From the NCBI RefSeq assembly GCF_000283515.1, contig NC_015976.1, positions 2,264,501 to 2,328,500 on the forward strand: a stretch of DNA of 64,000 nt. Direction: 5' to 3'. Source of the stretch: Sphingobium sp. SYK-6. GTDB lineage: Bacteria > Pseudomonadota > Alphaproteobacteria > Sphingomonadales > Sphingomonadaceae. The translations under genes were made by a program, and so were the position numbers. A model generated the notes under the pieces. It saw only the letters and a program-made list of their open reading frames with translations, was not told the origin of the DNA and did no database searches. Shown piece by piece: positions 33,174-44,355 of this stretch (positions are counted from its first letter, which is position 1; the number at the start of each line of letters is the position of its first letter).

Positions 33174-35297
33174 ATGCATTTCGGCAAGGCAGCGGTCATG
33201 GGGATGCTGGCGCTCATGCTGTCCCCGAGCGCCAGCGCCGGAGACCAGCCCGCGCATGTGACCTCCGCCCGGATGAGCGCCCCCGATGCGCCGGGCAATG
33301 CCGCGAGCTGGATGTCGCACGGCCGCAGCTATGACGAGCAGCGTTATTCCCCGCTGACCCAGATCAACGATCGCACCGTCGGACGCCTCGGCCTTGCCTG
33401 GTACGACGATCTGGCGACCTATCGCGGCGTGCAGGCGACGCCGCTGGTGATCGATGGCATCATCTACAATGCCTCGGCCTTCAACATCGTCACGGCCTAT
33501 GACGGGCGCACGGGCAGGAAGCTGTGGACCCATGACCCGCAGGTCGAGCGCCAATGGGCGCGGCTCGCCTGCTGCGGTCCCAGCACGCGCGGCATCGCGG
33601 CGTGGAACGGCAGGATCTACATCGCGGCGCTCGACGGGCGGCTGATCGCGCTGGACGCGAAGACGGGCAAACCGGTCTGGACTGTCCAGACCTTCGATCG
33701 CGCTTATCCCTATTCCATCACCGGCGCGCCCCGCGTCTTCGACGGCAAGGTGGTGATCGGCCATGGCGGCGCCGATTATGGCGTGCGCGGCTTCGTCTCG
33801 GCCTTCGATGCGGAGACTGGGCGCCGACTATGGAAATTCTACACGGTTCCGGGCAATCCGGCCAACGGGCCCGATGGCGAGGCGTCGGACAGCGCCATGA
33901 AGATCGCGCTTCCGACATGGCACGGCCAATGGTGGAAATATGGCGGCGGCGGCACGGCGTGGGACAGCTTCGCTTATGACCCGCGCCTCAATCTCGTCTA
34001 TATCGGCACGGGCAACGGCTCGCCCCTTTCCTGGCATTTCCGCAGCGAGGGGAAAGGCGACAACCTGTTCCTCTGCTCCATCGTCGCAGTCGATGCCGAC
34101 AGCGGCGCATATAAGTGGCACTATCAGATGGTGCCGGAGGAGGACTGGGACTTCACCTGCACCCAGCCGATGATGCTCGCGGACCTGCGGATTGGCGGCA
34201 AGTCTCGCCAGGTCATCATGCAGGCGCCCAAGAACGGCTTCTTCTATGTGCTGGACCGCAGGACGGGAGCCCTCATCTCGGCCGAGAAGTTCGTGCCGGG
34301 GAACTGGGCGAGCCACGTCGATCCAAAGACCGGCCGGCCGGTGCTTTACCCCGGCGTCCACCTCACCACCACGCCGCAGCGCATCACGCCCAGCCTCCTT
34401 GCCGCGCATAGCTGGCATCCCTGGTCGTTCAGCCCGAAGACCGGCCTCGTCTACTTCCCGGCGATGGAGCAATCGATCATCTATGCACGCCAGCGGGACG
34501 AGGATTTCCGTTTCGTGCCTTTCCGCAACAATGCCGGTTATGACTATGTGGGCGCCACGCCGGAGAACGCCGCGCTCCGCCGGAAACTGCAGGCCGAGGC
34601 GGATGCCATGGAGAAGGGTTATCTCCTCGCCTGGGACCCGGTGAAGCAGCGCGAGGCCTGGCGCGTGCCTTATTCCCTGCCCGGCTCAGGCGGCACGCTC
34701 GCGACCGCGGGCAACCTCGTCTTTCAGGGCACGATCGAAAAGACATTCGCCGCCTATCGGGCCGACGATGGCCGCAAGCTCTGGGAGATGCCGGTCGACA
34801 ATGTCGCCATCGGGGGACCGGTCACTTATGAGATCGACGGCGTGCAATATGTCGCGGTGAATGTCGGCTGGGGCGGCTCGATCGTCGCGGGCCTTCCGAA
34901 GATTCCCGGCGGCTTCCGCGTCTCGCCCGCGCGACTGCTCGTCTTCCGGCTGGATGCCGCTGGCGTCGCCTTGCCGCCCCTGCCGCCGCCCACGGCCCTC
35001 CCCCGCCCGCCCTTCCTGCGCGCCAGCGAGGAAGAGGTGCGGCTCGGCGCGCAGCTCTATGGCGAGACCTGCGCGCGCTGCCATGGCGAGAATGCGCGCG
35101 GCGGCCTCAAGGACCTGCGCTACATGACCAGCGAGACCCATGCGCAGTTCCTCGACATCGTGCTCAAGGGGACGCGCGCCGCGCAAGGCATGGCCGGCTT
35201 CAGCGATGTGTTGAGCAAGACGCAGGCAGAAGCCATCCACGCTTTCCTGATCGCCCGGGGCAACGAAGACTGGCAGGACGACGCCGCGCGGCAATGA
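33174..35297 (+). CDS. PQQ-dependent quinohaemoprotein alcohol dehydrogenase
   Basis: 707 residues, periplasmic. A signal peptide (MGMLALMLSPSASA) precedes an eight-bladed PQQ propeller with tryptophan-docking repeats. The vicinal Cys pair ARLACCGPSTRG stacks on PQQ, YIGTGNGSPLSW carries the calcium/substrate Asn, and WDFTCTQPMMLADLRIGG holds the catalytic Asp. A C-terminal cytochrome c domain (GETCARCHGENARGGL) accepts the electrons. This is the type II ADH layout, oxidising alcohols and passing electrons to external carriers. No pqq synthesis genes are in the window. Confidence 0.95.
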   Translation: MHFGKAAVMGMLALMLSPSASAGDQPAHVTSARMSAPDAPGNAASWMSHGRSYDEQRYSPLTQINDRTVGRLGLAWYDDLATYRGVQATPLVIDGIIYNASAFNIVTAYDGRTGRKLWTHDPQVERQWARLACCGPSTRGIAAWNGRIYIAALDGRLIALDAKTGKPVWTVQTFDRAYPYSITGAPRVFDGKVVIGHGGADYGVRGFVSAFDAETGRRLWKFYTVPGNPANGPDGEASDSAMKIALPTWHGQWWKYGGGGTAWDSFAYDPRLNLVYIGTGNGSPLSWHFRSEGKGDNLFLCSIVAVDADSGAYKWHYQMVPEEDWDFTCTQPMMLADLRIGGKSRQVIMQAPKNGFFYVLDRRTGALISAEKFVPGNWASHVDPKTGRPVLYPGVHLTTTPQRITPSLLAAHSWHPWSFSPKTGLVYFPAMEQSIIYARQRDEDFRFVPFRNNAGYDYVGATPENAALRRKLQAEADAMEKGYLLAWDPVKQREAWRVPYSLPGSGGTLATAGNLVFQGTIEKTFAAYRADDGRKLWEMPVDNVAIGGPVTYEIDGVQYVAVNVGWGGSIVAGLPKIPGGFRVSPARLLVFRLDAAGVALPPLPPPTALPRPPFLRASEEEVRLGAQLYGETCARCHGENARGGLKDLRYMTSETHAQFLDIVLKGTRAAQGMAGFSDVLSKTQAEAIHAFLIARGNEDWQDDAARQ

Positions 35298-35319: not shown

Positions 35320-36075
35320 TCAGGGATCGGGGATATGGTTGCCCGAGGGAGATCCCAGGCGTGTCCAGGCGTCATGATCCGCAAAGCGCGGCGGCGCATT
35401 GGCTGCGACCGCCCGCAAGCCCGCCAGATCGGCAATGACAATGCGCCCGCGCGACCGCTGGACATAACCGGCCTGGTCCAGCCGCTTGAGTGTGCGATTC
35501 ACATGCACCGGCGTTATCCCCAGCAGATCGGCGAGATGCTGCTGGGTCAGCGGCAGATCGAAGCCATCCGCGCGAGTCAGCCCGGCAGCGTTCAGACGAC
35601 TGTGCAAATCGAGCAGGAAGGCCGCGAGGCGTTCCAGCGCCGAAGCCGCGCCAATCCATGAGAGTGACTGCATCAAGGCCACCCTCTCCTTCTGTGTGCT
35701 CAGAAACAGTCCCACGGCGAGCCTGGGATTCTCGGTAAACATGCGCCCAAGAGCGGGGCAGGGAATCACGCTCACGACGACCTCAGTGAGGGCCTCCAGC
35801 GTCTCACCCGCACGTGAAAGCGAGAGGCTGGGCATACCCAGCATGTCGCCCGGCAAATGGACTTTCACGATCTGACGCCGACCGTCGCGAAGCATCATGG
35901 AGGACGCGACCCAGCCTTCCATCAGGAAAAAGATTCCCCCCACATGATCGCCCTCCCGCCGGATCGCGTGGCCCCGATGGATCTTTCGATTGGACGCCGC
36001 GAACCGCCGGACAAGATCCTCGTCCGAACCCGTCAACGGTACGAATTCTTCCAGACGATGATAGGGCGGTTGCAT
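35320..36075 (-). CDS. Crp/Fnr-family transcriptional regulator
   Basis: 251 residues. A cyclic-nucleotide-binding fold (AIRREGDHVGGIFFLMEGWV, KVHLPGDMLGMPSL) is followed by a Crp-type winged helix (LPLTQQHLADLLGITPVHVN then TLKRLDQAGYVQRSRGRIV). The N-terminal Cys cluster of Fnr is absent, so it is not an Fe-S oxygen sensor. Convergent with the PQQ dehydrogenase gene; no evident link to it beyond proximity. Confidence 0.92.
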   Translation of the reverse strand: MQPPYHRLEEFVPLTGSDEDLVRRFAASNRKIHRGHAIRREGDHVGGIFFLMEGWVASSMMLRDGRRQIVKVHLPGDMLGMPSLSLSRAGETLEALTEVVVSVIPCPALGRMFTENPRLAVGLFLSTQKERVALMQSLSWIGAASALERLAAFLLDLHSRLNAAGLTRADGFDLPLTQQHLADLLGITPVHVNRTLKRLDQAGYVQRSRGRIVIADLAGLRAVAANAPPRFADHDAWTRLGSPSGNHIPDP

Positions 36076-36842: not shown

Positions 36843-36996
36843 GGATCATCCTTTCCGGTCGCGCCGATGGCCGGCGCGCACGCTCCCCACTGGCAGCTTG
36901 GCTTCCCGGACGCAAATATCGCGGTGCAAATGATCGCGCAAACGGCCCCGGGGCGCTATGGCGCTCGCGACTCCCTCTCATCACCCCTGGATGCAC

Positions 36997-37443
36997 ATGC
37001 GATATTTTCTCGATACCGAATATAATGGCTTTGGGGGGACACTCATCAGCCTTGCTCTCGTCCCCGAGCATGGAGATCAGGAGTTCTACGTTTCGCTGCC
37101 GCTGCCCGAGGCCATTCACCCGTGGGTCGAGCGCAATGTCATTCCTTATCTGCGTCACGTCCCCCCGGGCGTCGATCATGTGCTTGACCGCGTGCAGGCC
37201 GCAGAACAGCTCGAGGCCTATCTTCAGGGAGATCCCGACCCGTGGATACTGGCCGACTGGCCCGAAGATCTCGCCCACTTCTGCGCGCTGATGGTGACCG
37301 GGCCGGGCGAGCGCATCAATCTGCGCAGTCTGCGCTTCGAACTGATCAATGCGACAGGGTTCAGCAGCGCGCGAAACAGCAGCGTCCCCCACAATGCGCT
37401 GCATGACGCGCGGGCGCTGCGCGGATTCTGCTTGTCGGAGTAG
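36997..37443 (+). CDS. DEDD-type 3'-5' exoribonuclease-like protein
   Basis: About 148 residues. The start MRYFLDTEYNGFGG gives the DxE of exonuclease motif I, DWPEDLAHFCALM supplies the middle Asp, and HNALHDARALRGF supplies the final His and Asp. This spacing and the DTEYNGFGG signature match small RNase AS-like exoribonucleases. In-frame ATGs at 36958 and 36991 also exist; no strong ribosome binding site decides among them. Confidence 0.8.
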   Translation: MRYFLDTEYNGFGGTLISLALVPEHGDQEFYVSLPLPEAIHPWVERNVIPYLRHVPPGVDHVLDRVQAAEQLEAYLQGDPDPWILADWPEDLAHFCALMVTGPGERINLRSLRFELINATGFSSARNSSVPHNALHDARALRGFCLSE

Positions 37444-37527: not shown

Positions 37528-38922
37528 TTACTGCCCCGTCCAGCTCGGCAGGTCGAGCGTGAAGCGCGCGCCCTGGCCCAGTGCGCTTTCCACCGTCACG
37601 TCGCCGCCCATGGCACGGGCGAGCCGGCGCGAGATGTAGAGGCCAAGGCCGCTTCCTTCCTCGCCGCTCAGGCCCAGACGCTCGAATCGTTCGAAGATGC
37701 GTTCGTGATCGGCGGGATCGATGCCCCCGCCCTGATCCGCCACCACGACCCGCGCGCGGCCATTCTCGACATCGACACGGACCCAGACAGTGCTGTCCCC
37801 CGGCGAATGACGCACCGCGTTGCCGACCAGATTGACGAGGATCTGAAGGACACGCCGATATTCGGCACAGGCCGGTGCCCGCTCTCCCAGAGGCGGTGTC
37901 TGGATGCGGACATGACGGGCGGCGGACTTGAGATTGAGCAGGCCGGCGGCGCGACGGGCCATATCGGCCAGGTCGACTTCCTCCTTCGCCGTCGTGAAGC
38001 CCGGACGCTCGATCGCCTGCAGGTCGGCAAGGTCGTCGATCAGTTCCAGCAGATGCCGTCCTGCCGCCGCGATATCCGCCGCATAATTGGCATAGTCCTG
38101 CCGCAGGGGGCCTTGGAGCTGCCCACTGATCGTGCTGGCATTGGCGATGATCCGCCCGATCGGCTGGCGCAGGGCCTGATCGAGCCGCCGGCCAAGATCG
38201 GCGCTGAAGATCCGGCCTGCCTCCGCCGATGACGGACTGGCTGACGCGGCGGACAGGTCGGTCTCGAAAACGGTCGGGACCGCCTGTCCACGATAGCCCG
38301 TCAGGCCGCCGACATTGTCGAACAGCGGCTCGCCGAACAGGCGATAATGAATGGACGGATCGGCGCGCAGCCGAGCCGGCTGATCCCGGAACGACACTCG
38401 CAATGCCAGCGCTTCCAGAAGCGGCATGGCAGGGCTCTCATCGTCGGCGACGATATCCAGCAGAAAATAGCCCGTCAGCGGCTCGCCAGCGCGCGGCGGC
38501 TCGTGCCCGATCGCTTCCGCTTCCTGGTAGGAGCGTCGAAAGCGCAGCCGTGCATCGACTTGCCAGGACCAGCCGTTCGCGCCCTCCTCCCCCGGCTCCG
38601 GAAAGGGGCCGATACCGCCGGCGGGTTCCTCGGGCGCGCGGGTCTGCCAGTCGACGATGGTCAGCGCATAGCCTTCCCCGTCGGGACGGATCTGGACCCA
38701 CATGCTGGCATCGGATGCCCCGTCGACGACTTCGACCGCGCGGGAGACGGGAATCGACAAGCGGCGGACGAGACGGACCAGTTGCGCGAGCGCCGGCACG
38801 GCCAGCGGCCCGTTCGGATCGCCGCCCGCCTCGACCTGCAGGCGCAGAAGCGCGGCATCTGCCGAGAGGATGGAACCTTCATGATCCAGCCGAGCCTGCG
38901 CGGCGGGCTTGAGCGCGATCAT
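37528..38922 (-). CDS. Histidine-kinase-like protein lacking the phospho-accepting His
   Basis: 464 residues, cytoplasmic. A long unrecognised N-terminal part of about 235 residues precedes a dimerisation helix and an HATPase_c domain. In the H-box the usual H-E-L-R-T-P-L reads Q-A-L-R-Q-P-I (residues 249-255), so the histidine is Gln. The ATP site looks intact: N box LQILVNLVGNAVRHSP, G1 VADQGGGIDP, F box FERFERL and G2 GSGLGLYISRRL. It may act as a phosphatase, an allosteric partner or a pseudokinase, as DivL does in Caulobacter (Tyr in place of His). It overlaps the upstream gene by four bases. Confidence 0.87.
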   Translation of the reverse strand: MIALKPAAQARLDHEGSILSADAALLRLQVEAGGDPNGPLAVPALAQLVRLVRRLSIPVSRAVEVVDGASDASMWVQIRPDGEGYALTIVDWQTRAPEEPAGGIGPFPEPGEEGANGWSWQVDARLRFRRSYQEAEAIGHEPPRAGEPLTGYFLLDIVADDESPAMPLLEALALRVSFRDQPARLRADPSIHYRLFGEPLFDNVGGLTGYRGQAVPTVFETDLSAASASPSSAEAGRIFSADLGRRLDQALRQPIGRIIANASTISGQLQGPLRQDYANYAADIAAAGRHLLELIDDLADLQAIERPGFTTAKEEVDLADMARRAAGLLNLKSAARHVRIQTPPLGERAPACAEYRRVLQILVNLVGNAVRHSPGDSTVWVRVDVENGRARVVVADQGGGIDPADHERIFERFERLGLSGEEGSGLGLYISRRLARAMGGDVTVESALGQGARFTLDLPSWTGQ

Positions 38923-39995
38923 CGCACGCGGTCCAGCAGCGCGAGTTTATCGGCGAGGGCGCGAGGTCCGGACATCCGGTCAAGCCATGACGCGGCGCGA
39001 TCGGGGGTATAGCGGCGATAATCCTCGATGAAGGCGACCAGCGCAGCATCGCCGCCCGCCGCCATGCCGTTCAGCGGCGCGAGCAGTTCGGCGGCGCGGA
39101 AAGCGACGGCATCGCCGACCCGCATGAGGCGCAGCAATGCGAGGCGCGGCTCATCACGAAGGTCGATCATGGCGTCGAGCACGTCGTCGAGCGGCAGTCC
39201 CGTCTCGCTTTCTGCAAGTGCGGCGAAAAGCAGAAGCCTGGCGTCCACGAGAGCGGCCGATGCCAGCGCATGGCGCGTTTCCGAGGGAAGACTCCGCGCG
39301 CAACGGCGGGCCAGCGCGAAGGCGCCCTGGCCTTCGTCATGGCGGCCGATCAGCTGTTCGGTCGCCCGCGCGATCGCCTTGACCGCCGCAGGCGCCTCGT
39401 GGCCGGGAAAGCGCTCGCAGCCCCGGATCAGCAATGCGGCAACCGTCCATGCGAGATCATGATAATGCTCGGCGGGAAGGTCGGGCCGCATCGGCGCATC
39501 CAGCAGCATCGGCGCAGACCAGCGCTTCTCCGCTATGCCAAGAGCCGTCAAGGCCTCGATATAGATGTCATTGCCAGCACCGGAAGCCAATGCAGCAAAG
39601 CTCGCTGGGCCGCCCGGCGCGTCATCGTTGCGCAGCAGCAGCGCCACCGCGGCGCGTCGACGCAAATGACCCAGCAATTCCGGAGAGAGCAGGTCGAGAT
39701 CGCTCTCGATCGCGCGGCGGGCATAGCCGGTCCCGAGATCGGAAAGCAGCGCCTCGATATGCGGATCGCCCACGTGCAGGCCGATGGCGAGCTCGATCGT
39801 GTTCATCATCCCGGCGAGATGAAACCGGGTTTCGGCGAGCAATGCGTCCGTCCACCGACGAGGGGTGGCCGCAGCGAGCCATGCGAGATCGGTGCCGTGG
39901 CGGACGTCCTCGATCAGGCGACGCGAGAGGCGCGCGGCTGGCCGTTCGCCCACGCCATAGGGGCGCTGCTCGACGGGATCGTTGGCCATGCTCAT
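38919..39995 (-). CDS. All-helical protein of unknown function, operonic with the kinase-like gene
   Basis: 358 residues, strongly helical and Ala/Leu-rich (LLSPELLGHLRRRAAVALLL, ARRCARSLPSETRHALASAA), with no signal peptide, membrane helix or catalytic motif. The pattern resembles alphaproteobacterial DUF2336 helical-repeat proteins, but I cannot confirm this. Its stop overlaps the kinase-like gene's start, so the two proteins are probably made together and may interact. Confidence 0.7.
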   Translation of the reverse strand: MSMANDPVEQRPYGVGERPAARLSRRLIEDVRHGTDLAWLAAATPRRWTDALLAETRFHLAGMMNTIELAIGLHVGDPHIEALLSDLGTGYARRAIESDLDLLSPELLGHLRRRAAVALLLRNDDAPGGPASFAALASGAGNDIYIEALTALGIAEKRWSAPMLLDAPMRPDLPAEHYHDLAWTVAALLIRGCERFPGHEAPAAVKAIARATEQLIGRHDEGQGAFALARRCARSLPSETRHALASAALVDARLLLFAALAESETGLPLDDVLDAMIDLRDEPRLALLRLMRVGDAVAFRAAELLAPLNGMAAGGDAALVAFIEDYRRYTPDRAASWLDRMSGPRALADKLALLDRVR

Positions 39996-40076
39996 GGCAC
40001 GTGCTTAACGCCACAGCCTTAATAGGCCCTAAATTCCCGGCGCGGATTCAGCAGGAAGCTGGATGCACCGCTGGTC

Positions 40077-41291
40077 TCAGGCCACCTTCTGCACGCCCGG
40101 GAACAAGCGTATGGTAACGATCAGCGCGCAGAGCGCTGCGAGCAAGGCAAAAGCGCCGTCCGGCCGGCCGAGAAGATAGCCCAGGAAAATGATCAGTGTC
40201 GCGGTCGGCACGGTGAGGCGGGCCCAGCGGGTCCACAGACCTGCCGGGGGCGCGCGCTCATCGGCAAGCGCCAGCACGCCGATCAGGAAGACCGGCAACC
40301 AGGCGCCCGCCAGCATCAGTGGCTGGCCTCCTGAAAGATGCAGGCCCGACACGGCAAGAAGAGCGAGGCCAGCCCCGTGCACCAGCCGCTCGCGCCACGG
40401 CGGGCCGGCGACACGCAGTGTCACCAGCGCAGCCTGTCGGGCCAGATCGCATGTGCCCAGCGCCAGCAACATCACGCCCAGCGCGGAGATCATCCAGCCG
40501 CTCAGGCCCAGGGCAAGTCCTGCCGAGGCAAGCAACAAGGAGAGGGCGACCGGCAGGGAAGGATCGATCTGCCTTCGCACCAGTTCGCGCACCATCGCCC
40601 GGGAGACAGGCGCGAGAAGGCTGCCGAGCCCGCTTGCGCGTCCGGAGAGATCGGCCTGACTGCGGTCGCTGAGCGCCTGCAGCGCGAGGTCTGCGCTCTC
40701 CTGGTCATGGACCAGCGCGAGCCGCCCCTCCATAACCATTTCCGGCGAGAGTGCGACGCGCGCAATCCCGTCCTGGACGGCCCGGCGCAGCAGAGTGAGC
40801 GCCAGATCCCATTCGCCGAGCATGTCGATCGTCGCCAGCACGCGAGTCGCGGGAAGGCACAGCGCGCCGCCCCAGACGGCGCCGCCATCGATGCGCTCCA
40901 GGTCGCTGGTAGCCGGAACGGCCGGCAGCGCCAGCACTGCCGCCGGCCCGGCCACGAGCAATGATGCCAGCGTGTCGGGAGGCAGGACGATATTCTCGGC
41001 AATGAGAAGCACGCGGTCCTCGGGAGCAAGGCTGCGAGCGAGGATAGTCATGTCCTGGAAAAGAGCCACCTCGGGTGCGCGCGGGCCGCCAATCTGATCG
41101 ACAAGCCGGGAAAGCTCCGGCGTGACCTCATCCACATGAATGAGCACGCGTTCGGCTCCGGCCGCGACAGCCAGGCGCGCCTGATACCCCACGAGCGGCT
41201 GCCCTCCGAACTCGATGAGCGAGCCGGCCCGATCCCCATCAGCATGGTCGCGCGCGCCGTCACGCGCACTGAGCAAGGCAACAAGCGCCAT
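40077..41291 (-). CDS. Membrane protein with nucleotidyltransferase-like N-terminus
   Basis: 404 residues. The N-terminal 190 residues resemble a degenerate sugar-nucleotidyltransferase fold (SLIEFGGQPLVGYQARLAVA, ERVLIHVDEVTPELSRLVDQ, a DRVLLIAENIVLPPD strand) without the usual GGxGTR loop. The C-terminal half has six or so membrane helices (LMLAGAWLPVFLIGVLALAD). The layout recalls fused nucleotidyltransferase/CDP-alcohol transferase enzymes, but the CDP-alcohol motif is absent. It lies within the His-less signalling cluster on the same strand; function unknown. Confidence 0.72.
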   Translation of the reverse strand: MALVALLSARDGARDHADGDRAGSLIEFGGQPLVGYQARLAVAAGAERVLIHVDEVTPELSRLVDQIGGPRAPEVALFQDMTILARSLAPEDRVLLIAENIVLPPDTLASLLVAGPAAVLALPAVPATSDLERIDGGAVWGGALCLPATRVLATIDMLGEWDLALTLLRRAVQDGIARVALSPEMVMEGRLALVHDQESADLALQALSDRSQADLSGRASGLGSLLAPVSRAMVRELVRRQIDPSLPVALSLLLASAGLALGLSGWMISALGVMLLALGTCDLARQAALVTLRVAGPPWRERLVHGAGLALLAVSGLHLSGGQPLMLAGAWLPVFLIGVLALADERAPPAGLWTRWARLTVPTATLIIFLGYLLGRPDGAFALLAALCALIVTIRLFPGVQKVA

Positions 41292-41435
41292 CCGACGTGT
41301 TAATCCAGGGCTTTCGACATGCCTCCTGTCTGACGGCGAGACAGCCTGAATGCAAGCGGAGGGCGTGAACCTCTTGCGCAGACAGGCCGCGCGGGCTTGC
41401 CGGAACGGCGAAGTGTCGATCGCCGGCGAACGCTC

Positions 41436-41463
41436 CTAACAAAAAGCCCCGCCAAGGCGGGGC
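41436..41463 (-). terminator. Rho-independent terminator of the Hpt-like gene
   Basis: Read on the minus strand, GCCCCGCC and GGCGGGGC form a perfect 8-bp stem followed by TTTTTGTT. It lies about 110 bases after the Hpt-like stop, separating it from the membrane protein gene downstream. Confidence 0.9.
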
Positions 41464-41575
41464 AGTGTTGACCGCTGCTCGGGTCTGCAGTGGACAGCGG
41501 GCGTCGATGAAACGTGCTACCGGCGCGTTGGTTGCATGCCGCGGGTGCGAAATGAGAAAATTTTCTGCCGGGCGT

Positions 41576-41887
41576 TCAGTCCCGCGTTTCGCCTTCGACC
41601 AGAGCGATCGCATCGCGGATCCGCCGCAGGATGACCGGATCGCCCGGCGCACTTTCCAGGGCTTCGTCAGCAAGGTCCATCACGCTGTTCACGCCGAAGC
41701 TCGCGCACAATCCCTTGAGCTTGAGAGCTGCCATGGTCCAGTTCGCGTCGCAGCGGGCGCGGGACAGAAGATCGAGCTGCCTTTCGGCGCTTTCCATGAA
41801 CGCGCGGCGCAACTCAGCGATCAGCGCGAGGTCCGATCCGACAGCCGCGGAAAGGGCTGCCTCAAGAGTGCCGGGGTCATAAGCCAT
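41576..41887 (-). CDS. Hpt-like four-helix protein lacking the phospho-accepting His
   Basis: About 103 residues starting MAYDPGTLEAALSAAVG. The helical pattern LIAELRRAFMESAERQLDLL and WTMAALKLKGLCASFGV matches histidine phosphotransfer domains, whose active helix reads A-x-H-x-L-K-G. Here the His position is Leu55 (AALKLKG). The protein therefore keeps the fold but should not carry phosphate; it may bind a response regulator or the coiled-coil protein. It is divergent from the 795-residue coiled-coil gene, across about 80 bases, and has its own terminator. Confidence 0.8.
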   Translation of the reverse strand: MAYDPGTLEAALSAAVGSDLALIAELRRAFMESAERQLDLLSRARCDANWTMAALKLKGLCASFGVNSVMDLADEALESAPGDPVILRRIRDAIALVEGETRD

Positions 41888-41967
41888 GCGCTGAAAATAG
41901 GGCGGCAAACGTAAACAGGGCGTAAAATTCGGTTCCACGGCGAGGCTAAAATGTTAAGGACAAGCCC

Positions 41968-44355
41968 ATGACAGGGCGCAAAAAAGAGAATAATCCGTCC
42001 CACTCAGGGACAGGGGGCCCGGACTCCGAACCGGCAAGGGATGCAGACGGCATGAGTCATGACTGGCTGGCGCGATTGCGCGAATCCGACTCCGGATGGA
42101 ATGAACCGGCCTTTCCGGACCGCTTCGCACGCAGCGATGGCCAGACGGCTGCGTCTCTTTCGGAACAGGCTGCCGTGGAGGAAACCTCTTATTCTGAAGA
42201 CTCTGGACGCGGCTTCGTGCGTCTCGCCGGCCTGGGACTGGTTGCGCTCGCAGCGATCGGCTGGATTGCGCTCGTGGCGGCAAGCGGCGTCGATCCTGAC
42301 ATCGCGCTTCGCCTCGCGCCTCTCGTCAATCTGGTGGCGGTTCTTGCCGCACCGCTGGTGCTGCTCGGCGGGCTTGCCGCATGGCTTGCGAGGCCGCGTC
42401 GCGATCAGGGCATGAACCCCGCCATGCTTGCCGGCGCGCGGGATACGGTCGGCCAGGCTGAACGCGCCGCCATCCGGCTCGGCGAAGCCCAGGCCCTTTT
42501 CATGAACCAGACACGCGATTTCGCGGCGATGGCAGACCAATCTGCCGGCGCGATCCTCGGCACCGTCCAGGCCATGAGCGCCCAGACCGCCCAGATCGAG
42601 CAGAGCACGGGCGCTTCCATCGCGACTCTCACGGACCTGAGCGAACGGATCGCGACGATGAGCGAGGCGCTGCCCCGCCTTGAGGACCGACTGGCAACGC
42701 TGGGCGAGACGCTGGCCCGGACCAGCGGCGAGATCGGCCATCGCCACGATTCGCTTGATCAGCAGCTCCAGTCCACGGCCCTCGTCGCGGAGGAAGTGCG
42801 GCTGCAATTGCTCGATGCAGGCAAGGCTCTGGGGGACCAGCTTGCTGATCTGCGCGAGGGCACGCGAACGGCCGGCGAGGAACTGGCCGGCCTCTCCGAG
42901 CTCTCCTCCGCGCGGATCGATCTGACGCTCGATCGGGTCAAGGGCGTGCTCGCTTCGACCCAGGAGCGCATCGAGGCGCAGAATGTCGCTCTCGCCGCGC
43001 TGGTCGAGGAGAGCCGGGCGAGCATCGATCGCGCCGCCGGCAACGCGCATGAACGCTTCGCCGAGCATTGCCGCAAGATCGAGACCATTCTCGATGCGCT
43101 GGACGCCCGGATCATGGGCCAGGCGGAGAAGAGCAATGCCTGGCTTGAGAGCACGGCGCGCGGGGTCACTGAACTGGCCGGCGAGTTCAATGCGCTGGAA
43201 CAATCCGCCATGGCGCGCACCGAACGGCTGTCCTCGACGATGATGCAGCTTTCCGGCGATACCCGGCGGCTGGTGGATGCCATCGAGGACGGCCACGGCA
43301 GTTCGGAGCAGCTCGTCCGTCGGGCCGAGGCCTTGCTGGTCGCGCTCGATTCCGGGGTCCGCGAGCTGGATGAGAGCCTGCCGACGGCGATGGGGCGCGT
43401 GGAAACGCGGCTCGGCGCCCTGCATGACCGCATCCGGGACGCCAATCCGGCCATCGAAGCCGTGGAAGCTGTCGCCACCGGCGTCGTCAGCCAGCTTCGC
43501 GAGTCCGACGATCTCGCCAAGGGCCATGCTGCCGCGCTCGGCGAGGCGCTCCAGCGCTCCCAGCAGGCTCTTGCGGCCCAGAAGGCGGAAGTCGCGGCGC
43601 TCGCGCAAGCCGTGGGCGAAGCGAGCGACAGCATGGCGCGGCTGGGCGAATCGGTCGGGCCGCAGATGATCGAGGCGCTGCTGCGCGTGCGCGAAACGGC
43701 CGATGCCGCTGCCAACCGGGCGCGCGCGGCGATTGCAGAGGCGATCCCGGCAGCCGCCGCCGAGTTGGGCGCAGCAAGTGGCGAAGCCATGGACAAGGCC
43801 GTCGGACAGGTCGTCACGGATCATCTCGCCCGGCTGACGTCGGTGGCGGACGAAGCCGTGAAAGCCGCGCACCGCGCGACTGACAAGCTCACCCGGCAGA
43901 TGCTCACCCTCACCGATGCCAGCCAGACGCTCGAGCGGACCATTGCCGGCAATGCCGAGCGGATCGAAGGGCAGGACCGCGAACTGATGGCCGAGCGCTC
44001 GGCCCGCCTGATTGCCTCGCTCAACGAACGCGCGATCGACGTCAACAAATGGCTCGACAAGGATGTCTCCGAGGCTGACTGGACTGCCTATCTCAAGGGC
44101 GATCAGGGACTGTTCGCCCGGCGGGCAACGAGGCTGGTGAGCAGCGCGGACGCCAAATATGTCCATGCGCTCTACAATGAGGATGCGGATTTCCGCGAGC
44201 ATGTGAACCGCTACATCCATGACTTCGAGGCCTTGCTGCGCACCGTCATGGCGACCAGAGATGGCAGCACGCTCGCGCTCACCATGGTGTCGTCGGACAT
44301 CGGCAAGCTGTACGTCGCGCTGGCGCAAGCCATCGAGCGCCTGCGCGCTCACTGA
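41968..44355 (+). CDS. Large membrane-anchored coiled-coil protein
   Basis: 795 residues. A hydrophilic N-terminus of about 80 residues is followed by two membrane helices (LAGLGLVALAAIGWIALVAA; LVNLVAVLAAPLVLLGGLAA) and then about 550 residues of near-continuous coiled coil with repeated A/L heptads (for example EQSTGASIATLTDLSERIAT). The compact C-terminal domain includes LNERAIDVNKWLDKDVSEAD and DFREHVNRYIHDFEALLRTV. No catalytic motif is seen. It looks like a scaffold or polarity-type protein. It is often labelled an ATPase in sphingomonads, yet I see no Walker motif. Confidence 0.8.
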   Translation: MTGRKKENNPSHSGTGGPDSEPARDADGMSHDWLARLRESDSGWNEPAFPDRFARSDGQTAASLSEQAAVEETSYSEDSGRGFVRLAGLGLVALAAIGWIALVAASGVDPDIALRLAPLVNLVAVLAAPLVLLGGLAAWLARPRRDQGMNPAMLAGARDTVGQAERAAIRLGEAQALFMNQTRDFAAMADQSAGAILGTVQAMSAQTAQIEQSTGASIATLTDLSERIATMSEALPRLEDRLATLGETLARTSGEIGHRHDSLDQQLQSTALVAEEVRLQLLDAGKALGDQLADLREGTRTAGEELAGLSELSSARIDLTLDRVKGVLASTQERIEAQNVALAALVEESRASIDRAAGNAHERFAEHCRKIETILDALDARIMGQAEKSNAWLESTARGVTELAGEFNALEQSAMARTERLSSTMMQLSGDTRRLVDAIEDGHGSSEQLVRRAEALLVALDSGVRELDESLPTAMGRVETRLGALHDRIRDANPAIEAVEAVATGVVSQLRESDDLAKGHAAALGEALQRSQQALAAQKAEVAALAQAVGEASDSMARLGESVGPQMIEALLRVRETADAAANRARAAIAEAIPAAAAELGAASGEAMDKAVGQVVTDHLARLTSVADEAVKAAHRATDKLTRQMLTLTDASQTLERTIAGNAERIEGQDRELMAERSARLIASLNERAIDVNKWLDKDVSEADWTAYLKGDQGLFARRATRLVSSADAKYVHALYNEDADFREHVNRYIHDFEALLRTVMATRDGSTLALTMVSSDIGKLYVALAQAIERLRAH

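Follow-up and report, generated by a model that had tools for sequence, protein, structure and literature searches.

A 64,000-nucleotide window of Sphingobium sp. SYK-6 DNA (contig NC_015976.1, positions 2,264,501 to 2,328,500) contains, at window positions 37528..44355, a five-gene locus in which a histidine-kinase homologue and an Hpt protein, both devoid of the phospho-acceptor histidine (His), lie together with a DUF2336-like protein, a membrane protein and a divergently transcribed membrane coiled-coil protein. An earlier note, made from the sequence of the window, had proposed that these genes form an undescribed signalling or polarity system, and all five open reading frames (ORFs) are indeed present where it had placed them. 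The locus is real and conserved, and on comparative evidence it is likely to be a polarity module; its ancestry, linkage, joint loss of His and constraint are established by sequence. Because the kinase and the Hpt protein have lost the acceptor His yet stay intact, the data suggest a polarity switch that works via binding rather than phosphate transfer. The account that we consider somewhat probable is that the locus represents the Sphingomonadaceae form of an old alphaproteobacterial polarity locus, in which an ATP-binding pseudokinase and a pseudo-Hpt would act by binding at a TipN-like scaffold.

The suspicion of a role in polarity is backed by the homology of the coiled-coil protein (795 amino acids; 41968..44355, forward strand), which belongs, as judged by profile searches, to the TipN family of Caulobacter. 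Profile A4, which comprises 28 rows, none of them from the families sampled in the 41-genome search of the order of genome G179, matched 13 of these 41 genomes at E ≤ 0.1. The assignment is made because the single match of this profile in genome G340 (885 amino acids, E 1.3e-10) is 92% identical over its full length to “polar localization protein TipN [Caulobacter segnis]”. Like TipN, the window protein combines N-terminal hydrophobic stretches, a long helical middle and a common C-terminal domain (43813..44352, forward strand). Two hydropathy peaks, at residues 86-104 and 122-140, are predicted to be two N-terminal membrane segments, and the helical or coiled-coil character of the middle was judged by reading the sequence. 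The closest named match is from Sphingobium nicotianae (80% across the last 236 residues); the full-length protein is matched in 104 of 118 genomes of the order, and the C-terminal profile in 70 of 190 genomes of the class. The gene is divergent from that of the Hpt protein, as claimed, with an intergenic region of about 80 bp (41888..41967) in which no sigma-70-like site was found.

A further parallel is provided by the giant polar proteins of the Rhizobiales, which were compared by description only. GPR of Agrobacterium is said to be similar to TipN (PMC8546619) and is called analogous to it (PMC13170164), and RgsE, a homologue of GPR, is described as having two membrane helices (PMC7327166). 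Their published architecture is thus that of a membrane-anchored giant helical polar protein, of about 2,100 amino acids as opposed to 795 in the window protein. TipN-domain proteins of 1,370 to 1,990 amino acids were observed at four loci (L109, L113, L186 and L187) of other Alphaproteobacteria and are possible relatives of GPR and RgsE; the TipN-domain gene of L187 has a divergent Hpt gene whose product contains His.

The pseudo-Hpt gene (41576..41887, reverse strand) lies in an ORF that extends to 41938. Its start is probably the ATG at 41885-41887, since homologues begin there, which gives a protein of 103 amino acids. A Leu residue (41723-41725) replaces the phospho-acceptor His. The protein matches PF01627 with 20.1 bits, under the cut-off of 24.6, and among the homologues tested this cut-off was passed by all five that contain His and by none of the three that lack it. 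The AlphaFold2 (AF2) model is a helix bundle with a predicted local distance difference test (pLDDT) value of 90.6. A Foldseek search with this model returned no match at E ≤ 0.001; 22 of its first 23 rows, all with E ≥ 0.033, are described as Hpt or phosphotransfer proteins. By model and homologues, then, the protein has the Hpt fold and Hpt ancestry, as had been claimed, and not an unrelated fold. Close pairs with computable synonymous rates (dS) gave ratios of non-synonymous to synonymous substitution (dN/dS) of 0.06-0.26, which are rough values, dS being high; by this measure the Hpt fold is retained under purifying selection.

The window Hpt alone, used as query against PDB sequences, gave no significant match. 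The Hpt family profile found ShpA (2OOC) as the closest solved structure, with E 7.9e-10 against 0.0069 for the next. ShpA belongs to the ShkA-ShpA-TacA stalk relay of Caulobacter (PMC7010744; PMC5590869); it aligns with a His at the phospho-acceptor site, unlike the window Hpt with its Leu. As the nearest solved Hpt by sequence, ShpA suggests that the ancestral Hpt may have served a developmental relay.

The kinase homologue (464 amino acids; 37528..38922, reverse strand) has a strong HATPase_c match (102.6 bits) and a HisKA match of 22.8 bits, under the Pfam cut-off of 26.9. Gln249 (codon 38176..38178, reverse strand) occupies the expected position of the phospho-acceptor His, so that the His-less kinase fold described in the earlier note is borne out. 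The ATP-binding domain has all four motifs, namely the N box at residue 364, G1 at 396, the F box at 410 and G2 at 423. Among 72 aligned kinase rows, 29 have the His and 43 do not. The latter carry eight different residues at this site (P, R, G, Q, E, D, A and S) and never Tyr (0 of 43); each of their ATP-site residues is kept in 41 to 43 of the 43, apart from one F-box position (38 of 43). Close pairs with computable dS gave dN/dS of 0.05-0.34, again rough because dS is high, and by this estimate the kinase is kept under purifying selection and is not decaying.

The kinase is coupled to the helical DUF2336-like protein (358 amino acids; 38919..39995, reverse strand), as had been proposed, by a 4-bp overlap (ATGA) of the stop of the latter with the kinase start. 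The window protein scores 27.9 bits with PF10098, below the cut-off of 34.6, and two homologues from basal Sphingomonadaceae score 178.8 and 217.9. The order's families f2 and f4-f8 (f5 being the Kordiimonadaceae) have a DUF2336 gene next to a kinase gene whose motif is the normal HELRTPL, or HELKTPL in one.

The loss of both His residues was mapped on a tree built from the TipN C-terminal domains of 56 genomes. Loss of the Hpt His requires one change, on a branch with support of 100/97. Loss of the kinase His requires two, one on this same branch and one in genome G427. The mapping thus places both losses on one branch at the base of the crown of the family, consistent with the joint loss that the earlier note had considered hard to attribute to chance. 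Early Sphingomonadaceae branches (G415, G471, G393, G349 and G053) keep both residues, the Hpt ORF of G349 being short (87 amino acids). Both genes are present in 38 genomes: both His are absent in 30 of these and kept in 7, one genome keeps only the Hpt His, and none keeps only the kinase His. All 41 His-less sequences among the 92 aligned Hpt rows (51 with His) come from Sphingomonadaceae or are named as genera of this family.

The neighbourhoods of these genes point to two old modules, TipN-Hpt and DUF2336-kinase, that are mostly joined in the Sphingomonadaceae. Loci with an Hpt gene in divergent orientation to the TipN-like gene occur in Kordiimonadaceae, Rhodobiaceae, Rhizomicrobium-like genomes, a Hyphomicrobiales bin and others. 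In these loci outside the Sphingomonadaceae, the Hpt has its normal His, and the DUF2336-kinase pair, also with a normal His, is located elsewhere. An Hpt gene stands beside the TipN-like gene in 91 of 147 loci overall and in 43 of the 87 outside the family, counted on a non-random sample in which some genomes occur twice. The sets with frequent pairing are that of the order (30 of 41 loci, 35 of the 41 being Sphingomonadaceae), the basal Sphingomonadaceae (13 of 15) and the combined named and second class set (46 of 58, 10 of the 58 from the family), for which the named scan was led by one Hpt-bearing sequence and the second class set was chosen by match shape. In five loci scored without Hpt, the sequence ends within 100 bases on the upstream side of the TipN-like gene. 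Many Kordiimonadaceae loci (L136-L158 and L177; e.g., L136:9498-10622) have a DUF2336 gene some 3 kb downstream of the TipN-like gene.

Within the Sphingomonadaceae, 159 genomes were sampled. The Hpt was matched in 107 of them and the kinase in 147 (E ≤ 1e-35); 131 of the latter were kept as likely orthologues. The kinase is also present in 104 of the 107 genomes with Hpt, and the two genes lie within 6 kb in 88 of these 104 and within 10 kb in 90. Profiles detect all five genes in 13 of the 41 loci of the order set, and all but DUF2336 in three more. The arrangement therefore recurs across the family, and the grouping is unlikely to be due to chance. Genomes G415 and G471, with all five genes within about 11 kb, both His residues and an intact CDP-alcohol motif, would indicate that the locus was assembled stepwise.

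The membrane protein (404 amino acids; 40077..41291, reverse strand) has no Pfam match above any cut-off. It is modelled as a nucleotidyltransferase (NTase)-like domain followed by poorly modelled helices, and the top fold match of this weak model is the IPCT-DIPPS structure 4MND (E 2.3e-7). The earlier description of a degenerate NTase fold holds for the first domain and is incomplete, as the protein also contains a degenerate CDP-alcohol phosphotransferase domain. The active-site motif of such enzymes, D..DG..AR, is absent from the window protein, unlike IPCT-DIPPS, and occurs in only 4 of 59 homologue rows (L103, L213, L214 and L222). Basal homologues in G415, G471, G358 and G105 carry it as DGVDGKLAR. 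The two of these tested, from G415 and G358, pass PF01066 with 36.0 and 41.1 bits (cut-off 22), and that of G415 matches the CDP-alcohol phosphotransferase AF2299 (E 6e-8). These homologies trace the membrane protein back to an IPCT-DIPPS-like enzyme whose active site has been lost. In G415, genes for an inositol-phosphate synthase, an NTP_transf_3 protein, a Wzi-like protein and a second CDP-alcohol enzyme lie between the DUF2336 and Hpt genes. Since basal homologues keep the motif and the G415 locus has genes of the inositol-lipid type, the membrane-protein gene probably derives from such a locus. No crown member seen retains the motif, and it is also lost in G393 and G354; this is a matter separate from the His losses, because G393 and G354 retain the kinase His.

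Two further observations concern this protein family. In a basal member of the Sphingomonadaceae (L213:8946-14877), a likely inositol-lipid locus with an inositol-phosphate synthase, an NTP_transf_3 protein, two CDP-alcohol phosphotransferases and a Wzi-like protein lies between the kinase-DUF2336 and Hpt-TipN pairs. Genome G105 (L055 and L103) has a TipN-like gene together with a CDP-alcohol enzyme whose motif is intact, and no close match to the kinase, DUF2336 or Hpt of this system was seen.

Several of the results weigh against a single polarity locus with a common history. The pairing of Hpt with the TipN-like gene is rare in the first class set (2 of 20 loci) and absent from all 13 TipN-like loci of the order to which Caulobacter belongs, a difference from TipN itself. 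The Hpt gene is dispensable, with no match in 27 of the 131 kinase-bearing Sphingomonadaceae genomes (one of them, G349, has the short ORF), and in genus g2 the TipN-Hpt pair stands apart from the rest in five of six genomes. The kinase of G427 is truncated (236 amino acids) and lacks its His while the Hpt His is kept, which makes the two losses separable. The G358 kinase also lacks the His, and no Hpt was seen in this genome; G358 is absent from the TipN-domain tree, its TipN gene not being among the sequences, and in the kinase tree it lies on a long branch beside the His-containing group. G393 and G354 combine the kinase His with a broken CDP-alcohol motif, and G358 shows the reverse. Finally, one shared branch is a single event, and the independent-pairs test had only two pairs and hence no power, so that the evidence for loss on the same branch comes from mapping and is not statistical.

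These points could be taken to mean that two or three unrelated modules (TipN-like protein and pseudo-Hpt; kinase and DUF2336; membrane protein) lie side by side, with His losses of separate histories. The separation of the modules outside the Sphingomonadaceae, the split in g2, the G427 kinase and the genomes without Hpt all speak for this explanation. It is, however, at odds with the loss of both His on one well-supported branch, with the lack of any genome, out of 38, in which the kinase His has outlasted that of the Hpt, and with the proximity of kinase and Hpt in 88 of 104 genomes. In addition, 19 of 63 loci, all 19 of them outside the Sphingomonadaceae, have a DUF2336 gene no more than about 3.2 kb away from the TipN-like gene. 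We therefore regard unrelated modules as unlikely.

The sequences show that the DUF2336-kinase pair and the IPCT-DIPPS-derived membrane protein were joined to the divergent TipN-Hpt pair, and that kinase and Hpt lost the acceptor His on one branch, with ATP site and Hpt fold retained. If the polarity-locus account is correct, the kinase may now serve as an ATP-binding pseudokinase whose DHp/CA core binds partners in the manner of DivL; the partner might be the pseudo-Hpt or a response regulator (DivK, for example), and the binding of ATP would act as a conformational input. The pseudo-Hpt would be a small adaptor that binds receiver or DHp domains, the DUF2336 protein and the dead lipid-enzyme homologue may have helper or membrane roles, and the TipN-like protein would position its partners at a pole. 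The relay would thus transmit a binding state in place of phosphate. A more specific version is possible, although we would not call it probable: a complete phosphorelay at a polarity landmark would have been converted once to a phosphate-free relay, in which the ATP-gated pseudokinase signals to the pseudo-Hpt by binding and the TipN-like scaffold reads this state and sets polarity.

The nearest precedent for the kinase is DivL, described as a pseudokinase that binds DivK~P (PMC4211667). The likeness consists in a histidine-kinase core without His, a cell-cycle setting and, for DivL, the binding of a regulator; DivL has Tyr in place of the His and, according to the same source, binds ATP poorly. 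The window kinase, in contrast, has Gln at this position (P, R, G or others in its relatives), keeps the ATP-site residues and has a DUF2336 partner.

The near-invariant ATP site of the 43 His-less kinases, as opposed to the weak binding of TNP-ATP by DivL (PMC4211667), would also fit a kinase that is still enzymatic, phosphorylating a non-His residue or, as a heterodimer, the DHp of another protein in trans, with the Hpt as a regulator only. The residues around the His site argue otherwise. The Glu that follows the site and the Thr four positions on belong to the kinase and phosphatase motifs. The Glu is lost in 43 of the 43 and the Thr is kept in only 2, so that both motifs are gone, and no common acceptor residue has replaced the His. 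An active kinase is accordingly improbable. That the locus is a functionless, decaying phosphorelay relic, as the sub-threshold HisKA, DUF2336 and Hpt scores, the unmatched membrane protein and the many genomes without Hpt might suggest, is very improbable in view of the low dN/dS of every computable Hpt and kinase pair, the open frames in dozens of genomes and the retained ATP site.

Next to the locus, a small protein (36958-37443, forward strand) starts with FLDTEYNG and has no Pfam match at E ≤ 1; from its start we take it to be exonuclease-like. Also beside the five-gene cluster are, by reading, a putative pyrroloquinoline quinone (PQQ)-type dehydrogenase with a haem-binding C-terminal motif (33174-35297, forward strand) and, adjacent to it, a putative Crp/Fnr-like regulator (35320-36075, reverse strand).

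In the open-licence library searched, no paper was found on TipN with Hpt in this setting (only the unrelated HubP of Vibrio), and nothing on TipN in Sphingomonadales or on DUF2336. The designation of the system as undescribed is thus apt in part: TipN itself is well described and the parts are of known kinds, and it is their combination and the double loss of His that appear to be new. Single pseudokinases such as DivL are already known; here both kinase and Hpt became acceptor-less on one branch, with ATP site and fold kept, which amounts to a natural experiment on relay proteins without phosphate. The divergent arrangement of TipN-like and Hpt genes across several alphaproteobacterial families supplies a landmark protein with a partner that can be put to the test, and the locus opens the study of polarity in the sphingomonads.

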